Source of the DNA: a virus
Direction: 5' to 3' (one strand)
DNA length: 61,012 bases
IMG/VR virus record: IMGVR_UViG_3300031841_002149
Coordinates: 1 to 61,012 of that record
Shown here: in pieces, positions 3,001 to 35,270 of the stretch
Layout: each line of letters opens with the position of its first letter
How positions within the stretch are numbered: position 1 is the first letter of the stretch
Notes under the pieces: generated by a model
The model's input: the letters and a program-made list of their open reading frames with translations, nothing else
Told to the model about the DNA's origin: nothing
Database searches by the model: none
Program-made: the position numbers and the translations under genes

Positions 3001-5858
3001 CAACAGGAAATGTGACGGTATCAAGCACACTCCCACTAATATCACTCATAGACACTGATGCCACCAACTCACCAACCGTTAAGATATACAACAACAACGG
3101 CAACATGAGTCTGAGGGCTGACAGTGAGAACGTAGGTACAGGTGGGGTCATTGACTTCCAAACATCCGGTTCCGAGAAGATGAGACTCACTGATGCCGGT
3201 AATCTCGGTATAGGCACTACGAGTCCTGATGCACCACTTCATGTCGAACACTCATCCGGTCTGATAGCCAAGTTCGGAGAGGGCAACGTAGAGACTCAAG
3301 TGACGTTTGCCGATGCTAGGGCCATGATTGGCTATGTCGGTGACTCGTTGATGCTACAAGGTGGAGCAGGTAATAAATTCGTTAGATTCGCAGTCAACAA
3401 CGGGACATTTGGTAGCGGTGAGGTTGCTAGGTTCGATACGTCAGGTAATTTTGGATTAGGCATTACGGGTCCAACCGCTAAATTACACGTAGATGAGGCT
3501 GGCCTGAATGCAGCGTCCTTGACCTTCGATGCGGCTGCCGGACAGATATTCACCAACGAAAACTCACAGTTCGCATTTGGCCTTCACAACGCTTCTCCAT
3601 ACCCACTATACATCCAAGGTAGGACTCATACCAATGGCACTCGACAGATGGTTCTCAACCCGTTGGGGGGCAACGTAGGTATCGGTGCTTTGGATGCTGA
3701 CGATGCCCCGCTCCATGTCAAGCACACAGGGAATGGCGACACTCTAATCCTTGAGTCAACCGATGCTGCCGGTACAGACAATGACATGGCTCCCAACCTC
3801 GTTCTGTTGAGAAGCGGAACCCCGGCTCAAAGCACCAACACCGATGCCGGGAAGATACAGTTCAAGGCATTGGATGATGGTTCGACAACTCGATTGTTGG
3901 GCCACATACAGTCTGAGTTCAACACAGCGAGTGGTAGCAATGGGTCTGCGAGAATGAGATTCAATGTATCATCATCAGGCGGTAGCGGCCACAACGACTA
4001 CGAGTACCTTCGATTCGATGGTGGGGTGCGGGATGTCGTGTTCAACGAGTCTGGAATCGACATAGATGTGAGAATAGAGGGCGATTCGGACACCGCCCTT
4101 TTCTTCACGGATGCTTCGTCTGACCTCATAGGAATTGGGACGACAAGCCCCGCAGCCAAATTGGATGTGAGGACAGGCTCAGGTTTCGCCATCAATATAG
4201 GTGCTGATGTAAATACCACGACCCTTACTGATAGCACTAGGAAGTTCGCAAGAATAGGCTTGCCCCATTACACCAACGCTGAAGAACCCGTCACCATACT
4301 AACAGCAGATTCAGAAAGTAGTTATTCAAGAATATCAATTGGTGGGGGAACAGGTTCAGGCAACGCCCCCTCTCAGATTTTCTTCTACGCAGAATCAAAC
4401 ACCACTACTCTTTCTAACGGTAGCGCAAGAGCGGCAATAACATCAACCGGATTGGGAATAGGCACTACGAGTCCCTCAACAGAACTCCATGTATCGGGTG
4501 CTGACCATCCCTCAATAAGAGTCACAGGAACAGACAACGCAAATGCTGACCCTGCAATCGAGTTATTGGGAACTGATGACTCCTTCGTTGAAGGAGGGCA
4601 ACTGTGGTATGACAACAGCACAGGAGTCCTTCACCTTGCATCGCTCTACAACAACGCTGCCGCAGACATACAATTCCATACGAGAGTGGGAGCAGATAGG
4701 TCAACATCAAACGTGAGAATGACGATAGAGGGAGACGGTAATGTTGGCATAGGAACGTCGAGTCCCTCTAGCAAGTTGGAGGTCGATGGCACGATAACTG
4801 CCACGGCATTCTCAGGTGAGGTGCAACCGAAGGCGACGACGGCGACGGCTGGTGCGGGTACTACAGACTACTATGCGAAGTTGCTCACCTTCAACCCCGG
4901 TGGTAGTACCACACGGGATTGCAACCTCATACTAGGCGTTACCGCCCACGACCAAGGGGCAGTCGGAAGCGCGATAATCAGCGTCAAGTTCCGCTCCAAC
5001 GGAACCACCGCACAATACACCGCCGATGTAGCCTTCATGTCCAAGAGCGGAAATTCCATCTTCGACAAAGATGCCTTTCAGATATTCAGCGACGGCAACC
5101 TCGTAGCGCAAGACAATAACACGGACATCGAACTGTGGGTGAAGAAGAACAACAACTACGGTGCATTAGAGGTACACGAAATATCCAAGGCCATTACGGG
5201 CGGTACTACCACGCTTACCTACCACACTGATTCTGCATGGCAGTCTTCCGCCCCAACCAACAACGCATTCACGACAACCACACAGGGAATTGAGTTGAAC
5301 TTGGATGAGGTTCGCATGGGCGTGGCAGGATCAGATACATACCTGTACTTGCATCCTAATACGCCGAACTCCTACCTTCTTGCCACTACTGCTGGTGATG
5401 TCACGGTACTCGCAGACGACGACCTGACGCTCCACGCTGACAGTGACATCTTCTTCCAATCAGGAGGGGCAAACACAAGGATGACTGTTGCCTCCAATGG
5501 CGATGTCTCAGTTGTAGGGGCCTTCTCAGCCGCTACCAAGTCTTTCGACATAGAACACCCAACAAAGGAGGGAATGAGGCTGCACCACGGCTCGCTTGAG
5601 GGACCGGAGCATGGTGTGTATGTCCGTGGTAGGTTGGAGGGCGATGTCATTGATCTACCTGACTATTGGCTAGGTTTGGTGGATGAAGATACTATAACCG
5701 TTCAACTAACTGCAAACAGAAGTTTCCAACAACTATACGTTGATGAGATAGCAGACAACAAGATATACGTCGGCACACAGACAGATACGCCGATTGACTG
5801 CTTCTACTTCGTACAGGCCGAGAGAAAGGACGTTGACAAGATGGAGGTCGAATACTAA
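27..5858 (+). CDS. Large tail-fibre protein with C-terminal chaperone-like domain
   Basis: This 1943-residue protein is a putative receptor-binding fibre. The region before residue 750 is a beta-rich mosaic. From about residue 770 to 1580 it carries at least eight spaced copies of a G-[IL]-G-x-x-x-P...L-x-V motif, for example GIGTTSPDAPLHV near 1059 and GIGTTSPSTELHV near 1476; such repeats are typical of phage fibre shafts. The last ~105 residues (from KSFDIEHPTKEGMRL, about 1838, with GSLEGPEHGVYVRGR) match the conserved region seen at the end of many marine virus fibres, related to the S74-type intramolecular chaperone domain. A GTG start follows an in-frame TAG and a GGAGTGAGGGGG purine run. 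Its stop TAA overlaps the next start by one base. Confidence 0.85.
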   Translation: MADYFWKGGSGSNGWSTAANWVNSGGSAYGTPPTASDTVIFDDTGQTDCVLDNTNLTANYIYIDSDFGHSLTMSGLSAKVVMNGMEVSKAAVFNFTASTEFELRSTASGWTSYVNSSSTTSNNLYIRYLIDSSPFANDTSRYATIYDFNSKDYCLVDGVYPTIDRPGNLEAKAIFKDTSGGAFNSYGSVDLLAFTNNEFTSTSTNPDVYDYDKEFYFEGRYGSDSSLAYRIGENFKFGHTTVIFRAGTDSNGQHFQVPVKGDIISSGSPRGNTTTNVFNVQYHKVIIRAPPLLSEPRYCYIEDGRTLECNELVIEAGGRLYGPAEGEQVASSKIKSVKRPTVQGDWNFKQIADGIYESIDNIPTLPVTEGGTGLNVVEKAGILYGDGQNPLGVLSLGTRTQVLVVNDNEDGVEWGQPEHLQIQVRNDEGTTIPVGAPLYSKGEIGGSQRILVGIADAGDANKMPCIGLANAEMNTTTTKDNYATVGGVYNINLDSGFSGLNEGDILYVKNWSGTPTAPSDVLTTTKPTGPTELVQNVGIILKTNGTIIQGLLVSVIGRTNDVPNTISIEGDITSNGNISALDGTITANTFVGGYDTGDAIYRTFNPADHLKLQTYDAGTPGFVTELEILNDQGGIQITNDLTVGGDLTVSGTTTTLNTQTVEVEDNILQLNTTQGSPDTATDPVSGIEIYRGSGVNVASFKFLDNSSDRWQLYNGTAAMDFYMTGGVSEMSANSNSLYLTTKRDGDDIHLRTGTTETTRMYIDGGQDYSGYVGIGTQTPASPLHVYHTDNTGIPGITIETAASAAQSDSKLRIKESHGSATWVDFTVNTFGQLEITGGATTRRQIFTADDPDTDDLGVISLNKDHYEWDTQIFGDSSTPVIFVDGTNNRMGVGLTNPSTELEIASTGTLKLGNAELVANQFRINNTGGYAQVELGGSLGAFIDLKSPFSTDDYDLRLISSGSGGTIQTSGNANLGINVGTGAVAITGNMSVSTGNVTVSSTLPLISLIDTDATNSPTVKIYNNNGNMSLRADSENVGTGGVIDFQTSGSEKMRLTDAGNLGIGTTSPDAPLHVEHSSGLIAKFGEGNVETQVTFADARAMIGYVGDSLMLQGGAGNKFVRFAVNNGTFGSGEVARFDTSGNFGLGITGPTAKLHVDEAGLNAASLTFDAAAGQIFTNENSQFAFGLHNASPYPLYIQGRTHTNGTRQMVLNPLGGNVGIGALDADDAPLHVKHTGNGDTLILESTDAAGTDNDMAPNLVLLRSGTPAQSTNTDAGKIQFKALDDGSTTRLLGHIQSEFNTASGSNGSARMRFNVSSSGGSGHNDYEYLRFDGGVRDVVFNESGIDIDVRIEGDSDTALFFTDASSDLIGIGTTSPAAKLDVRTGSGFAINIGADVNTTTLTDSTRKFARIGLPHYTNAEEPVTILTADSESSYSRISIGGGTGSGNAPSQIFFYAESNTTTLSNGSARAAITSTGLGIGTTSPSTELHVSGADHPSIRVTGTDNANADPAIELLGTDDSFVEGGQLWYDNSTGVLHLASLYNNAAADIQFHTRVGADRSTSNVRMTIEGDGNVGIGTSSPSSKLEVDGTITATAFSGEVQPKATTATAGAGTTDYYAKLLTFNPGGSTTRDCNLILGVTAHDQGAVGSAIISVKFRSNGTTAQYTADVAFMSKSGNSIFDKDAFQIFSDGNLVAQDNNTDIELWVKKNNNYGALEVHEISKAITGGTTTLTYHTDSAWQSSAPTNNAFTTTTQGIELNLDEVRMGVAGSDTYLYLHPNTPNSYLLATTAGDVTVLADDDLTLHADSDIFFQSGGANTRMTVASNGDVSVVGAFSAATKSFDIEHPTKEGMRLHHGSLEGPEHGVYVRGRLEGDVIDLPDYWLGLVDEDTITVQLTANRSFQQLYVDEIADNKIYVGTQTDTPIDCFYFVQAERKDVDKMEVEY

Positions 5859-13998: not shown

Positions 13999-15030
13999 AT
14001 GGTAGAGTTCCTGAACAGATATGTATCGATAGAAAAAGAATCAACATACGGGACCGAGCCTTCCGGCACTCCGATTTACGGAGAGGTCGATGATGAATCG
14101 CTCGCAACGACGTATGACTTGATGACAAGGCAAGACATGAGCAGACCGATTTCTTCAAAGTCCGTGACCGGCACTGAGAGGTCCGAGGGTGACATCAACC
14201 TCGCTATGCAGGTCGATGACTTTGTAGGTAACTTGCTTTACGCTTTCTTCCCACAAGACACACAGACCACTGACGGCTCACAAGAGCAGCACGTTCTAAC
14301 TGAGCCTTCCTTGACAAGTGCCTCCGGTGGCGTTTACCCATCGTGGACTATCCGTGTCGGTAGAGAGGAAAAAGAACACACATTCACCGGAATGGTGGCT
14401 AACTCACTAAGCGTAAGTGCATCTGTGGGTGAGTACGTCATGATGGGTGTGGGCTTCTTGGGCAAGAGCGAGTCTGCCCCTGCTGCTTTGGCTACGGCCA
14501 CCTTCGACGGTGCTGCGCTCGATGCTCTTTACTTCGCTAACGGCACAGTCAAGTTCGATGATGGTAGCGGAACTGCACCAGCAGCCTCCGCAAGCGTCAA
14601 GTCCATTTCCTTTGACATCAACCTAAACAGGGACACGGACAACGCATACGCAATCGGTAGCCCTTCATATGGGCGTGCGCCACCTGCACAACGCAGGGAG
14701 ATCAGTGGGACCATCGAGTTCAACAAGGTTCTCTATGGCGACCAAAGCCTAGATGAGCCTGACTACGATGCCCTAGTAGCCTCAGACGGTGTGGCATACA
14801 ACGATGGCACTGACGCAGTTATGACCTTGGACTTCCTAGACGAAGCCGGTTCCGACTTCATCAAGTTTGAGTTCTTCAACATTAGGTTTGAAGCCCCCGA
14901 AGCATCTGTAAGCGGCAGGGACACGAACACTATGACTGTAAACTTCATCGGCCTCTATGATGACAATTTGGGTGGAATGAGAGTGACTGCCAAAGGCGCA
15001 CAACTCAGCGCAACCGAATATGACGCATGA
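13999..15030 (+). CDS. Major tail tube protein
   Basis: A 343-residue protein of the siphovirus/myovirus tail-tube type. It starts MVEFLNRYVSIEKESTYGT, the common start of tail-tube subunits ('sYvgigkEsTyGT'), followed by a beta-rich body and repeated G/S/D loops; RAPPAQRREISGTIEFNK resembles the strand pair that forms the tube wall. The location before the tail-assembly chaperones and tape measure is diagnostic. An own promoter and SD suggest high expression. Confidence 0.75.
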   Translation: MVEFLNRYVSIEKESTYGTEPSGTPIYGEVDDESLATTYDLMTRQDMSRPISSKSVTGTERSEGDINLAMQVDDFVGNLLYAFFPQDTQTTDGSQEQHVLTEPSLTSASGGVYPSWTIRVGREEKEHTFTGMVANSLSVSASVGEYVMMGVGFLGKSESAPAALATATFDGAALDALYFANGTVKFDDGSGTAPAASASVKSISFDINLNRDTDNAYAIGSPSYGRAPPAQRREISGTIEFNKVLYGDQSLDEPDYDALVASDGVAYNDGTDAVMTLDFLDEAGSDFIKFEFFNIRFEAPEASVSGRDTNTMTVNFIGLYDDNLGGMRVTAKGAQLSATEYDA

Positions 15031-15039
15031 GGTGATTAA

Positions 15040-15228
15040 TTGCACGAAGACCTAGCAAAAGACTATGACTTAGACGAGAAGGACATGGCTACGCTCTCCA
15101 AGATCGAGTCAAAGAGCGTTGCACTTAGATTCCTCAAGAGGTTCCCTAAGAAGGTAGCCAAGCCCGCTCCTAAGAAGAAAGCACCGGCCAAGAAGGTCGA
15201 GGTCGAGGAAGAGAAGGGTGATGAGTGA
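15040..15228 (+). CDS. Small lysine/alanine/proline-tailed protein
   Basis: A 62-residue protein starting at TTG (15040), chosen because GAGGTGA lies at ideal spacing and no ATG is suitably placed. The N-terminal half is acidic (HEDLAKDYDLDEKDMATLSK) and the C-terminal half is a K/P/A-rich low-complexity arm (PAPKKKAPAKKVEVEEEKGDE). It ends in a TGATG overlap with the next gene. Function unknown; expression is coupled to tail genes. Confidence 0.5.
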   Translation: MHEDLAKDYDLDEKDMATLSKIESKSVALRFLKRFPKKVAKPAPKKKAPAKKVEVEEEKGDE

Positions 15229-15425
15229 TGGCTAACAACGGCGGCACTGTAATCACTGATAAGACTAAGTTGATGGTCAGCAGATTCGCTGGCACGGCTG
15301 CTGAAGTGCAGACTGCGTTCAGGGCAGCCATAGCCAACAACGATGTAGTCATTTCCTGTGACGTATCAAGAAGGAAGAACAGCGAGGACATTGCTCTCAC
15401 TGTCGTTTGGTATGACGTAGCATAA
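15228..15425 (+). CDS. Small unknown tail-operon protein
   Basis: A 65-residue protein, MANNGGTVITDKTKLMVSRF at its start, ending LTVVWYDVA. The start overlaps the upstream stop by one base (TGATG). It appears compact with alternating strands and one helix (AAEVQTAFRAAIANND). No family recognised; position suggests a tail accessory protein. Confidence 0.5.
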   Translation: MANNGGTVITDKTKLMVSRFAGTAAEVQTAFRAAIANNDVVISCDVSRRKNSEDIALTVVWYDVA

Positions 15426-15492
15426 ATATTTATTAATGCTATAATGTTTAATTTATTCTGAGCGGGCCTGTGGGCCATAGAGTAGTGATACC
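15426..15492 (+). promoter_or_regulatory. AT-rich promoter region before tail-assembly chaperone
   Basis: A 67-nt gap starts with an AT-rich stretch holding TATA-like sequences (TAAATATTTATTAA; TATAATGTTTAATTTATT). It then has a small GC hairpin GGGCC-TGT-GGGCC-like repeat just before the ATG of the chaperone gene. No clear SD is present, so the hairpin or a short leader may set translation. Confidence 0.35.
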
Positions 15493-15843
15493 ATGCCGGT
15501 AATGAAGAAAGAGATAGAGTTAGACGACGGACGAAAGATTTGGGTGAGGCAAGCCTCCGGTATGGAGAGGCTCAAGATCACTAACATTCAGGGTAAGGCT
15601 TTCCGCAAGATGCGACACGCCGGAACTCCCGACAAGTGGACTGAGGAACAGAACGAGGAATTTGCCTCTATTGTAGATGACATGGGCGGTGGGATAGAGG
15701 CTCAGATAGAATCATGGGTTCCTGCTTGCATTCTCGATGAGGATGTCGATGTCAATATGCTAACGTTTGAGGAACTGAACAAGATCCTTCAGTTCGTCCG
15801 TGGTGACGATGAGGATGGTGCGGTCCCTTTTCAGAATTCCTGA
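15493..15843 (+). CDS. Tail assembly chaperone, upstream frame
   Basis: A 116-residue protein in the slot of lambda gpG: between the tail tube and the tape measure, followed by a shorter overlapping frame. The N-terminus is a small beta domain (KKEIELDDGRKIWVRQASGMERLKI) followed by helices and an acidic end. Its last codons contain the heptamer C-CCT-TTT in the phase needed for -1 slippage, four sense codons before the TGA. The stop overlaps the next ATG (TGATG). Confidence 0.65.
   Translation: MPVMKKEIELDDGRKIWVRQASGMERLKITNIQGKAFRKMRHAGTPDKWTEEQNEEFASIVDDMGGGIEAQIESWVPACILDEDVDVNMLTFEELNKILQFVRGDDEDGAVPFQNS
15825..15831 (+). promoter_or_regulatory. Putative -1 ribosomal frameshift site (CCCTTTT)
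   Basis: CCCTTTT is a perfect X-XXY-YYZ heptamer in the reading phase of the upstream chaperone gene (codons CCT TTT). Slipping back one base enters the frame of the next ORF, which stays open from here through its ATG. The fused product would be about 217 residues. A 6-bp inverted repeat (CCTTTG...CAAAGG, 15857-15877) lies 25 nt downstream, somewhat farther than usual for a stimulator. Confidence 0.5.
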
Positions 15844-16145
15844 TGGTCGCACCGAGCCTTTGCATGGCCTTCAAAGGGACACTTCCTTCTGACCTATGGC
15901 TCAAGTATTCCGTGGAGGGTGGTCGTCACCTGATGGACATGGACTTGGTTGTGGCTGCTGAGATAAACGACAAGATCAGCGAGGCTACCAGCGAGGTTAA
16001 GAAGCGAGATGCCAAAGGTGCAGTAGCCCGCAGGGACCAAAGGCGTGAGCAACGCAAACTCTTATCAAACAATATGGATCTACTCGACATATTGAGCGAA
16101 AGCGGTGTTCCGGTTGAGGGTAAGCGAAGTGAGGGTTCTGAATGA
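15843..16145 (+). CDS. Tail assembly chaperone, downstream frame (GT-like extension)
   Basis: A 100-residue frame in the -1 phase relative to the upstream chaperone. It can be made as a C-terminal extension by frameshifting at 15825-15831 or independently from the ATG at 15843 (TGATG restart). It starts MVAPSLCMAFKGTLPSDLW and continues with charged helices (EINDKISEATSEVKKRDAKG, then an arginine-rich stretch), as in T extensions that bind the tape measure. Its stop overlaps the tape-measure ATG by four bases (ATGA). Confidence 0.6.
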   Translation: MVAPSLCMAFKGTLPSDLWLKYSVEGGRHLMDMDLVVAAEINDKISEATSEVKKRDAKGAVARRDQRREQRKLLSNNMDLLDILSESGVPVEGKRSEGSE

Positions 16146-19100
16146 TAGAAGCGTTGGGAAGTAGCCTATTGTTGGGGTATCTTTCCCCTGTCGCACTGTT
16201 CACGGCAGCCATCTGTCTCCTTGTTCTTCGCGCTGGTGCGTCTAGGGTTTTCTTCGACATTGTTGGTACTTTCCAAGCCACCAAGATGATCAACGATGCT
16301 CAATCCGCCGGAACTGTGTTTGAGTCGATTTACCTAGATACTCTTACGGGAATACAAGAATCAGCCCAAGAACTAGGCGAGATATTTAATAATCTTACTG
16401 ACAGTGTGGTTCCGATAGCAAGGGAACTAGCCGAGGCAGAGATACAATTAGACAAGTTCCTTGAGGCCGGGTTAGACGTAAGAGAAGTGAGGGAAGACCT
16501 AGAAGGCATCGGTATGGCCTTCGGGTTCGCTGGCGATCAAGCAATGGAAGCAGCCGCTAAGATGGCGCAGATAAGCGGTGTTCTCGGTGCTGGTTCCTTG
16601 GCTACGGGAACGCAAATAGGTATGGAGTTCGGCCTAATTAGCGGTATGGAAACCGAGGCTGCTATGCAGAGGATGATCAACCTTCAACAACAGACTAAGT
16701 TTATGACTGACGGTATCAACGAGAATGCCTCTGCCGAAGAGAGGGCCACTAAGATAAGGCAAAACTCAATGTTAGTTCTCGACCAACTGAACACGATTGA
16801 GAACCGCTCGGCTGCTACGATGGAGCAGATAACCTTCGTCATGAACCAATTCGCTTCACAGGCCCATCTTGCCAATGAGGAAATAAGAAGCATGGCCGCA
16901 CTATCGGCGGTCATGATTGAGACAGGTGAGGAACAGGGTAAGGGTGGTCGAGCCTTGCGTATGATGTTCGCTAGGTTGGGTTCCAACATCGGTGGCGCAA
17001 GAGATGAGATGGAGAGATTCGGTGTTCAGGTTGTGGACGCAGAAGGTAATATGCGACCTCTATCAGTGATGCTAAAAGAACTAGAGGCAGGTTTCTTCGC
17101 CCAAACCAGCGCACAGCAACAGAACACAGCGCAGGTCATAGCCGGAAACAGGCACTACACACGTTTCCTCAAGTTGATGACCAACCTTGATCGCGTGAGG
17201 GAATTGGAAATAGAGTCAGCAATGCGTCTATTCCCCGCTATGGATGAGATAGAAAGAAGAAGAAACAGCGAACTTTTTCAACTTGAGCAATCGGAAGCAG
17301 CATTGAGAAACTACTCTGCTGCTTTAGGTGAGGCACTCATACCACAAATGACAAACGTAAATATGATACAAGCAAATTTCATGAAGACGCTTGCTGAATT
17401 CGCAGAGGGTCCATTAGGATTCATAGTTCCCGCCGTTATGGGCTTGGCTAAGTCCTTTAGCACAGTGTTGGGGCCACTTGTCAACACGGTGATTACCTTC
17501 AAGAGCCTCAGTATATCCATGCAGACGCAACTCGCTGTTATGCGTGCTTTGAACCAACAGCAGCAAACCTCAAACGCATCAACCATAGCAGGGAACGTAG
17601 CGAATAAAGATGCGGCTGTGCAATATCATTTCCAACAACAAGCGTTGCAAGACTTAAATAGAGAAAGAGAAATAGAAAAAGGATTACTTGAGCAGAATAT
17701 GAATTTGGCTTCACTTAGCACGGATGCGCTATATGAATATCTTGCGGCGGCAGAAAGAGACTTGGAAATCTTAAAAGACAAAGATATAATAAAACAAAGA
17801 TTAATAGAAAAAGAAGAAATATTAACTGAATTAATATATAGAAAGGGTGCGGTACTAGAACAAGAGAATGCAGACAAGGAGGCCGCAAATATAAGGGATA
17901 GGCAGCAGATTGAAAACGCAAAGCAAAACGCTGCCGCTATGAACGGTCTGACTATGCAGATGATGGGTGCTGGAACGGCCCTAATGATGTTCGGTAAGAA
18001 TCAAAGGGCAATGAAGGCAGGTATGGTATTGAATACTGCTGCTATAGGGGCGCAGATATTTCAAATGATTATCAAGAATGCAGAATCCATACAGGCCACA
18101 TTCAATACAAGGGCCGAAACACAAGCGTTGCTTGCAAACACAGGAGCATTAGGGGCAAACACAAAAGCAAGAGCGACTAATAATGAGGTGGCGCGTGCAG
18201 GTTCAGCAGCAGTAGGTATGGGAACGAAAGGCTTCGGTAAAGCACTGATGCGTTCTGCTGCTATGATGGGCGGTATGGCTATTGCTGCTGTTGGTGTCAG
18301 TTATGCGTTAGATAAATTCCTATTCAAGACGAAGAAGGCGAAGAAAGAAGTAGACGACTTATCATCTTCCCTGATTAGCGCAACGGATGTATTGGGCATA
18401 ATGGCAGAAGAGGGATTCACAGTCGAATCCTCTCAACAAATAGTAGATGAGCAACAAGCGATAGTAGACTCTATAAGAGTACAGTACAAAGAGGGTGAGA
18501 AACTAAACGCCTTAGATCAACAAAGGCTTGACACGGCAATGAAGTTAAGAGATGAACATCAACTAGCAATAGATCAAACTGAGAATATGGCTAATCTAAC
18601 AAAGGTATTGGCTATGGACTCAGAGGACTTGGCTACCTTTGCTTCAATGGACATAGATCAACTCAGAAGAAGCGCAAGGGGGATGGAAATACACACAGGA
18701 TCAGTTTCAGAAAACTTAGCAGAAACGATAAAAACATATGAAGATACTCAAGATGCCCTAGGTGCTTATGGTGAGGAATTCGTAAGAATATTCAAAGAGA
18801 CAGGCGATATAGAACAAGCCAAGGCCGCACTACAAGGGTATTTGGACATAATAGAAGATGGTCTTGCGGGAAATGGCGCAGGTAGCATCGCTGATTCTGT
18901 TGAGGTGGCGAACAATACCCTTACTGATTTCCTAAACACAAGAGAAGAGATGTTCCACGGCTTCAAGGCCGATAAGTTAACAGGTGACTTGGTTAGACAA
19001 GTCCAACAACAGGGAGTCGAGACATTGATAACAAGCACGGAGGTAGTCATGACCAACGTGTTCAACGGTATGACGATACCGGAGATGGCTGACTTATTGA

Positions 19101-19162
19101 TAGAAGAGATAGAGATTAGAGGTAGGGCGAATGGCTTCAACGTCACCGCTAACGTAGCGTAA
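16142..19162 (+). CDS. Tail tape measure protein
   Basis: A 1006-residue protein that sets tail length and is later involved in DNA delivery. It is mostly long helix: coiled-coil segments (about 50-160, 360-400, 490-600, 740-860), hydrophobic segments near 8-30, 425-445 and 705-725 (MMGGMAIAAVGVSYALDKFLF), and A/Q/N-rich stretches. At roughly 1.5 Angstrom per helical residue this implies a tail near 150 nm. The ATG overlaps the upstream stop. The very hydrophobic first 30 residues are unusual for this family and the true start could be later. Confidence 0.8.
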   Translation: MIEALGSSLLLGYLSPVALFTAAICLLVLRAGASRVFFDIVGTFQATKMINDAQSAGTVFESIYLDTLTGIQESAQELGEIFNNLTDSVVPIARELAEAEIQLDKFLEAGLDVREVREDLEGIGMAFGFAGDQAMEAAAKMAQISGVLGAGSLATGTQIGMEFGLISGMETEAAMQRMINLQQQTKFMTDGINENASAEERATKIRQNSMLVLDQLNTIENRSAATMEQITFVMNQFASQAHLANEEIRSMAALSAVMIETGEEQGKGGRALRMMFARLGSNIGGARDEMERFGVQVVDAEGNMRPLSVMLKELEAGFFAQTSAQQQNTAQVIAGNRHYTRFLKLMTNLDRVRELEIESAMRLFPAMDEIERRRNSELFQLEQSEAALRNYSAALGEALIPQMTNVNMIQANFMKTLAEFAEGPLGFIVPAVMGLAKSFSTVLGPLVNTVITFKSLSISMQTQLAVMRALNQQQQTSNASTIAGNVANKDAAVQYHFQQQALQDLNREREIEKGLLEQNMNLASLSTDALYEYLAAAERDLEILKDKDIIKQRLIEKEEILTELIYRKGAVLEQENADKEAANIRDRQQIENAKQNAAAMNGLTMQMMGAGTALMMFGKNQRAMKAGMVLNTAAIGAQIFQMIIKNAESIQATFNTRAETQALLANTGALGANTKARATNNEVARAGSAAVGMGTKGFGKALMRSAAMMGGMAIAAVGVSYALDKFLFKTKKAKKEVDDLSSSLISATDVLGIMAEEGFTVESSQQIVDEQQAIVDSIRVQYKEGEKLNALDQQRLDTAMKLRDEHQLAIDQTENMANLTKVLAMDSEDLATFASMDIDQLRRSARGMEIHTGSVSENLAETIKTYEDTQDALGAYGEEFVRIFKETGDIEQAKAALQGYLDIIEDGLAGNGAGSIADSVEVANNTLTDFLNTREEMFHGFKADKLTGDLVRQVQQQGVETLITSTEVVMTNVFNGMTIPEMADLLIEEIEIRGRANGFNVTANVA

Positions 19163-33459: not shown

Positions 33460-34989
33460 CTACTGTGACGGTGCGGTTATGGCTGCGTCAGTCATGAGAA
33501 TTAGTGCGGCCACGGAAACTGCGGCATCAAGGCTGTTGATGACCACGTTCACAGGGTCGATGACCCCATCCTCCCAAGCATCGCCGGTAGCCCCGGTGAC
33601 ACCGTTGAGATAGGAGCCTTCTTCGCCCTCAAGCGCGTTCAGGAACAGATCACTACCTGCGTTTTCTTTTATCGTAGTAATAGGTCCGGCTAGTGCGGTT
33701 GAGAACAGGTTGAGAATCTCAGCGTTCTCATCCCTCGGATGCTGCTCCAACTGAGAAGCGGCCCGATACAACTCGGACCCACCGCCAGCGATGACACCAT
33801 CGGACAGTGCGTGCTTGCACGCATTGACGGCATCATCGACGCGCTCCTTGCGCTCTATCTGCTCTACCTCGGTCACGCCACCTACATAGATGGTGGATAT
33901 TCCCGTGGTCAGCCGGGTGATCCTGTTCTGATACGCCTCTTTGTCCCACTCATTGTCAGTGCCATCCCTCAACTCGGTGAGAGCGAAGACGGAATCCTCA
34001 ACGTCACCACCACAGTCAACGAGAACGGTGTTCCTCTCGCCAATGAAGGACCGCTTGCAAGTGCCAAGGGTATCTAGTTTTAGCGTGAGTTTATTGAACT
34101 CCGCGTCCATCTTCGTCCCTGTGGCTGCGGCTATGTCCTCCAACCATGACTGTTGCTCATGTGGCATACCGGGAACCTGCACGATGGCGCAGGACACCTT
34201 GCCCTGTATCACGTTGACAAGTAGGTTCTGCAAGACAGTGCTGTTGAGAGAGGCACAGAAGACCACAAGTGGCCTACCTTCTTTTATGCTAATCTCAAGT
34301 GCTGGCACTAGGTCATTGAACGTGTTGATCTTCCTACCTGTGACATAGACGAGGGGGTTCTCATACTCACACATATTGCGTGGTGCGTTTGCCATAGCCC
34401 TGTGCATGAACCCAGCGTAGACCTCAAAGCCGTCAGCCGAGTCAACGTATGTCTCGCCGTTGAGCGACTTCTCTATGGTCACTGTTCCGCTCTCGCCGTT
34501 CTCCTTCATGACGTTGGCGATCAGTCGCCCCAAGTCCTCATCGTTGTTTGAGGCTATGGTCGCCACATCAACGAGGTCGAAGTCCCTGTTCACCTTACTC
34601 TCAAGGTAATCCCTTGTCTGCTCGGTGTAGGAAATCAAAGCGTCACGGATGATCTGCGGGCTGATCTCCTTCTCCATCAACGACAGCGAGCCGTTGGCAA
34701 GGGTCTTAGCGATGATCGTGGCACTCGTAGTACCGTCACCTGAGTTGCCCTGTGCCTCGGAGGAAACCTGCTTCATCAAGTCGATTCCCATTTGCACGTA
34801 GGGGTCAGGGTCAGTGACAGCGCGAGCGATGGTCACACCGTCGTTGAGAATGGCAGGGTAGCCTCCCAACGGATTCTGTAGAATCACGGTGCGAGCCTGT
34901 GGCCCAAGAGTGCCTTTCACCGCATCAGCAACGAGATTGACACCCTTGAGCAACTTGCTCCTTGCTTCCGTTCCTGTCAGCATACTCAT
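33460..34989 (-). CDS. groEL: Group I chaperonin (GroEL/Hsp60)
   Basis: A 509-residue Hsp60. Signature segments: TLGPQAR (27-33), GDGTTSA (84-90), the apical domain, RKERVDDAVNACKHALSDGVIAGGG (about 380-400) and GDAWEDGVIDPVNVVINSL (about 470). The sequence is of the bacterial GroEL type, not the thermosome (group II) type that archaea normally use. Close downstream of a GroES-like gene (TGA-AC-ATG), so the two form a classical groES-groEL unit. It presumably folds viral capsid or tail proteins. The GGM tail found at the end of most GroEL proteins is absent; the end is TDAAITAPSQ. Confidence 0.9.
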   Translation of the reverse strand: MSMLTGTEARSKLLKGVNLVADAVKGTLGPQARTVILQNPLGGYPAILNDGVTIARAVTDPDPYVQMGIDLMKQVSSEAQGNSGDGTTSATIIAKTLANGSLSLMEKEISPQIIRDALISYTEQTRDYLESKVNRDFDLVDVATIASNNDEDLGRLIANVMKENGESGTVTIEKSLNGETYVDSADGFEVYAGFMHRAMANAPRNMCEYENPLVYVTGRKINTFNDLVPALEISIKEGRPLVVFCASLNSTVLQNLLVNVIQGKVSCAIVQVPGMPHEQQSWLEDIAAATGTKMDAEFNKLTLKLDTLGTCKRSFIGERNTVLVDCGGDVEDSVFALTELRDGTDNEWDKEAYQNRITRLTTGISTIYVGGVTEVEQIERKERVDDAVNACKHALSDGVIAGGGSELYRAASQLEQHPRDENAEILNLFSTALAGPITTIKENAGSDLFLNALEGEEGSYLNGVTGATGDAWEDGVIDPVNVVINSLDAAVSVAALILMTDAAITAPSQ

Positions 34990-34991
34990 GT

Positions 34992-35270
34992 TCACGCCTC
35001 AAGTCCAAAAGAAGTGTTGTCGTTGTCGTAGAAAAGGTCTTCGACCCCTATGGCATACAAGTCCTTGTAATGCACACAGATAGTGCGAGCGTCGAGCGAC
35101 ACAGCCTTTTCCTCGTTGTAAAGGATAACATCACCCAAGTTTAGTTTTATGGGAACAGTTTCTCCCACCGACTCCACCACGAAGGCGGTCTTGAGGACAA
35201 GACCCGTCTCTAGGGTGTGTTCGGTAGCCACAAGGATAACGTGGTCGCCCAACGCCCTCAAGCATCCCAC
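34992..35270 (-). CDS. groES: GroES-like co-chaperonin
   Basis: A 92-residue protein with the GroES pattern: LGDHVILV near the N-terminus (family consensus 'L-x-DRVLV'), a mobile-loop region (TLETGLVLKTA), FVVESVGE, then GDVILYNEEKAVSL and a final DLYAIGV (family 'ilaIv'). A GTG start at 35270 is most likely; a TTG at 35252 is possible. It ends 2 nt before the GroEL ATG. It should cap the chaperonin ring. Divergence from bacterial GroES is high, so exact function is inferred from position. Confidence 0.7.
   Translation of the reverse strand: MGCLRALGDHVILVATEHTLETGLVLKTAFVVESVGETVPIKLNLGDVILYNEEKAVSLDARTICVHYKDLYAIGVEDLFYDNDNTSFGLEA

Follow-up and report, generated by a model that had tools for sequence, protein, structure and literature searches.

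The question raised by this locus is how two overlapping reading frames, situated between the tail tube gene and the tape measure gene of a tailed virus, are translated. The locus belongs to the IMG/VR record IMGVR_UViG_3300031841_002149, of which the whole stretch of 61,012 nucleotides was analysed (referred to as the window). The first frame, G (15493–15843, + strand, TGA stop included), encodes 116 amino acids by ordinary translation and carries the heptamer CCCTTTT (15825–15831) near its end, in phase as C_CCT_TTT within the zero-frame codons GTC CCT TTT CAG AAT TCC TGA. The -1 frame is preceded by a TGA at 15810–15812 and is open from 15813 to 16142, and a shift is thereby confined to the region from 15813 through the zero-frame stop at 15841–15843. 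The original prediction of a programmed -1 frameshift had already noted that the heptamer is in phase and that the downstream frame is -1 and open from this point, and both statements hold. Beyond the predicted shift, the -1 frame encodes the T domain (15831–16145, + strand; 104 codons and a stop, beginning with S-E-F-L-M-V-A-P-S-L-C-M), and the predicted GT fusion would comprise about 217 amino acids. The G stop also overlaps an ATG (15843–15845, + strand, TGATG), at which translation of T alone could restart.

Such a heptamer would seldom be expected at this position by chance. Among the 7,916 codons of the window's structural genes on the + strand, 21 carry in-phase words of the type X_XXY_YYZ with X different from Y (0.27%), and in-phase CCCTTT occurs twice. 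At this background frequency, the nine-codon overlap is expected to hold about 0.02–0.03 such words, and the heptamer found there is already unusual.

The proposed gene order of tail tube, chaperone pair and tape measure is confirmed by profile matches. The upstream gene (13999–15030, + strand) encodes a tail tube protein (PF18906, E 2e-21), and the downstream gene (16142–19162, + strand), whose ATG overlaps the T stop, encodes a tape measure protein (PF10145, E 1.2e-13; also matched by tape measure families of PHROG). Two small open reading frames lie between the tail tube gene and G (15040–15425); one encodes 62 amino acids, rich in Lys and Glu, with a TTG start, and the other 66. In the leader before G (15425–15492), an AT-rich TTTATTAA-like stretch, common to the subclade of the window, is located about 60 nt upstream of the gene and is a possible archaeal TATA box. 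The leader also contains a GGGCCTGTGGGCC inverted repeat, which is shared by the window and its closest relatives.

Further matches in the window were obtained for PolB, an RFC-like AAA ATPase, an ERCC4 nuclease, a Cpn60 chaperonin and a portal protein. The combination, in a tailed virus, of archaeal-type replication genes and a chaperonin of the Cpn60/GroEL type matches the gene set given for the magroviruses, the tailed viruses of Poseidoniales (PMC10768690). The virus family probably infects abundant marine archaea. Among the phage relatives of the Cpn60 chaperonin (33460–34995) listed by tblastn, most were GroEL proteins of Vibrio and Flavobacterium phages (32–34% identity).

Neither G nor T belongs convincingly to a Pfam or PHROG family, weak matches at most being obtained. 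The AlphaFold model of G (pLDDT 87.5) gave the HK97 tail assembly chaperone 2ob9 as first match in a Foldseek search of the PDB, although with a modest E value of 0.079 and a probability of 0.72. The best two rows of the VIA-align comparison were YqbN (3klu, Z 5.0) and 2ob9 (Z 4.8), which are likewise modest values, and several of the matches among viral models (BFVD) are annotated as tail assembly chaperones. These modest matches of a predicted fold are consistent with the position of the gene. The model of T is helical, and the fold search with the T domain returned only one close viral match, which carries no name.

Relatives were collected in five scans of IMG/VR, for which the first open reading frame and its alignments served as queries. 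These yielded 227 loci, the window included, and 128 distinct junctions after identical copies had been removed; distinct junctions are not independent of each other, and counts on the tree correct for their kinship only in part. Searches of INPHARED with G and with the tail tube protein gave no match, and a first scan of genome contigs with the G alignment gave no relatives. The IMG/VR contigs are metagenomic, and single odd ones (L147, perhaps L022) may carry sequence errors. The T frame crosses the G stop in the -1 frame in 127 of the 128 distinct junctions, four of these being open only as far as their short contig extends. Within the region permitted for the shift, 116 of 128 junctions hold a strict in-phase X_XXY_YYZ heptamer (CCCTTTG in 71, CCCTTTA and CCCTTTT in 17 each, TTTTTTG in 11).

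The check proposed with the original prediction, whether related viruses retain CCCTTTT or have a different heptamer here, has a clear outcome: C_CCT_TT[G/A/T] is present in 105 of 128 junctions, and a clade of 11 carries T_TTT_TTG. The heptamer stands family-wide, but its strict form is partly lost among the close relatives of the window. The 12 junctions without a strict heptamer are L147 and 11 members of the window's own subclade, in which CCT_TTT is preceded by A (five), G (three) or T (one) or in which CAT_TTT is found (L022 and L019). U_UUU is retained throughout these close relatives, even where the strict heptamer is relaxed. In L147 (4001–4460), T follows G in the +1 frame (GTA TCC TTT CGT TGA, +1 reading PFVEFLQVAPALC); this reflects either a +1 shift at UUU_C, for which the +1 shift proposed in HSTV-2 offers a parallel, or an error of one base in the sequence.

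The slippery word might also be a by-product of constraint on the protein (V/I-P-F/L), with an incidental overlap of the frames, and the residues around the heptamer are indeed fairly conserved in G. The codons point in another direction. The residue before the proline varies (Val, Ile, Leu, Pro, Cys, Thr), yet the third base of its codon is C in 88 of 88 C_CCT_TTR junctions, regardless of the amino acid. Isoleucine at this position is encoded by ATC in 40 of 40 cases (15% elsewhere in the same genes), the heptamer proline by CCT in 113 of 113 (33% elsewhere) and the heptamer leucine by TTG or TTA in 87 of 87 (52% elsewhere) and never by CTN, whereas the heptamer phenylalanine is TTT in every case. 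Of 205 columns compared in divergent pairs, that of P112 has the most constant codon. On the maximum-likelihood tree (106 rows), the codon of P112 underwent no synonymous change (CCT in 94 of 94 sequences), compared to 31 changes for P2 and 33 for P46. Selection therefore acts on the nucleotides of the slippery word, beyond the protein alone, and the probability of a mere by-product is close to negligible. Codon constancy was also observed further downstream: among 77 relatives on the tree, 76 have TTA as the leucine codon at 16062–16064 (T residue 191), and residues 192, 193 and 202 are similarly constant, which points to a possible nucleotide signal within the coding sequence, some 80 nt upstream of the tape measure start.

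The 11 junctions with T_TTT_TTG form a monophyletic clade (support 100/100), in which P-F is changed to N-F-L (codons GT[T/A/C] AAT TTT TTG) and the site lies one codon further on than C_CCT_TTN. That this amino acid change came together with another valid heptamer likewise argues against a by-product. In most members, T_TTT_TTG is the only site left for a shift because a TAA in the -1 frame lies just before TTT; AAATTTT is additionally present in two of the 11.

The runs of T at these sites, four at the end of the window's heptamer and six in the T_TTT_TTG clade, would suit slippage of the RNA polymerase instead of the ribosome. Most of the family, however, possesses a run of only three T (CCCTTTG or CCCTTTA), which is too short for polymerase slippage of a known kind, and the CCC half of the word is under equal constraint. 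Transcriptional slippage is therefore highly improbable.

The T_TTT_TTG clade is also the only one with a strong hairpin (GTGAGGG-TNGCN-CCCTCAC), which is separated from the heptamer by a 5-nt spacer (mean z -2.5). Its stem is constant and its loop variable in L141, L148, L149, L150, L152 and their kin. A stem-loop at a distance of 5–9 nt downstream was found in this clade and not in the subclade of the window, and the hairpin was thus rejected as a family-wide stimulator. In the window's subclade, no conserved downstream hairpin was detected (mean z about 0 in pseudoknot-free folding), and the consensus fold downstream was weak and lacked covariation support. Complementarity of the Shine-Dalgarno (SD) type peaks upstream of the site at about -13 and -26 nt. 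A dnaX-type stimulator was nevertheless rejected, since the observed value in the window's subclade (-6.1 kcal/mol) hardly differs from that of synonymously randomized sequences (-5.9 kcal/mol); the peaks follow from the encoded residues RGDD and EGA, which give such complementarity anyway.

A continuous transframe product is indicated by the residues that are read in the -1 frame only. In the transframe alignment of 127 relatives, the residues (S/I/L)(E/D)F(L/I/V), which lie before any possible start codon, are conserved in front of VAPSLCMAFKG and lead into VAPSLCMAFKGTLPSDLW. The same region bears on termination and reinitiation, by which ribosomes would stop at the TGA (15841–15843) and restart at the ATG at 15843, giving a separate T of 100 amino acids and no fusion. 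Most members of the window's subclade have TGATG or TAATG, and the genome commonly shows overlapping starts (e.g. at 5858 and 16142). However, the ATG is missing in L006, L022 and L046 of this subclade and in nearly all other clades, so that a restart is not the shared mechanism of the family. In many relatives, the vicinity of the junction lacks a start codon, and the first ATG in the -1 frame often lies 32–218 nt past the G stop (elsewhere than in the window's subclade often 47–218 nt downstream), within the conserved T domain. Moreover, neither the conserved heptamer nor the -1 residues before the ATG would be needed for a restart, and reinitiation as the sole mechanism is very unlikely. 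The original prediction had regarded both a TGATG restart and a shift as possible; the relatives support the shift, but the restart is not conserved across the family. In the window's subclade, it may add free T.

Taken together, the -1 frame kept in 127 of the 128 junctions, the heptamer kept in 116, the codon constancy, the heptamer replacement and the gene order make a lambda-type G/GT programmed -1 frameshift in the tail chaperone pair very probable. The anatomy of the junction, the heptamer with its conservation and replacement, and purifying selection on the codons are observed; slippage, its efficiency and the function of the products are inferred. Most ribosomes would make G and stop at 15841–15843. 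In a minority, the P site would hold tRNA-Pro on CCU and the A site tRNA-Phe on UUU when the ribosome slips by -1 onto CCC and UUU, and translation would continue with P-F-S-E-F-L-M-V-A-P to give the GT fusion. By analogy to lambda, G would bind the tape measure protein and T would recruit tail tube subunits; given such roles, the ratio of G to GT would matter. Regarding the tRNA-Pro that reads CCU, a Poseidoniales genome was found to encode tRNAs for Phe-GAA, Leu-UAA, Leu-CAA and Pro-UGG, and tRNA-finding programs did not detect Pro-GGG in it.

The two kinds of A-site codon differ in what surrounds them. In members with UUR, the leucine tRNA in the A site would, after the slip, mispair only at the wobble base, and all 88 of them have C as first base of the heptamer; in members with UUU, re-pairing in the A site would be perfect, and the first base is relaxed in 9 of 26. 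This difference is significant if kinship is ignored (Fisher p 5e-7), and the tree requires several separate changes. It is conceivable, though rather doubtful, that the window's subclade relies mainly on an A-site-driven slip on U_UUU, for which P-site pairing hardly counts, and has gained the TGATG restart in addition. If this is true, a single junction could yield three products on an archaeal ribosome, namely G, GT and separate T.

The predicted frameshift resembles that of lambda G/GT (PMC5009743) in its site between tail tube and tape measure, in its -1 direction near the end of the first frame, and in a second frame without a conserved start of its own. It differs in the slippery word, C_CCU_UUN or U_UUU_UUG here and G_GGA_AAG in lambda, and the heptamer is thus not of the lambda type, as had been stated beforehand. 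Closer in host domain are the haloarchaeal viruses HVTV-1, HCTV-1, HCTV-2 and HCTV-5, which are archaeal tailed viruses with a -1 frameshift predicted in the chaperone pair (PMC5009743, PMC8211752). HVTV-1 has its chaperone annotated as a joined CDS that precedes the tape measure gene, and G_GGA_AAG lies 27 nt before the stop, but its G showed no detectable relationship to the G family of the window. The sites reported for the HCTV viruses also differ from those found here (GGGAAAC, AAAAAAC and GGGAAAG; PMC5009743, PMC8211752).

A heptamer identical to that of the window, C_CCU_UUU, is the NS1' site of West Nile virus, for which U_CCU_UUU occurs naturally, other changes of the first base still permit the shift, and the A-site codon counts most (PMC11507841). 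This tolerance resembles the N_CCT_TTT variants in the window's subclade. West Nile virus is, however, an unrelated RNA virus whose shift takes place on a eukaryotic ribosome and depends on a pseudoknot, whereas a structure of this kind was not detected in the subclade of the window. According to a review from 2021, the alpha-fucosidase of Sulfolobus is the only archaeal -1 frameshift shown experimentally (PMC8211752). It shares the -1 slip by an archaeal ribosome, but concerns a cellular gene and an A-rich site.

A literature search for Poseidoniales in combination with ribosomal frameshifting found nothing, and no mention of the shift was found in the open-access papers on magroviruses that were consulted; an earlier notice elsewhere is possible. 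The kind of event, a -1 shift in the chaperone pair, is already known; as far as could be found, the novelty lies in the family, in the use of these heptamers in such a setting and in the turnover documented for the site. The conserved sites of the family are comparative evidence for the use of C_CCU_UUN and U_UUU_UUG by ribosomes in uncultured marine archaea. With 128 natural variants of the site, among them a subclade with a relaxed heptamer and a clade in which the heptamer was replaced, predictions about the rules of P- and A-site pairing on archaeal ribosomes become directly testable.
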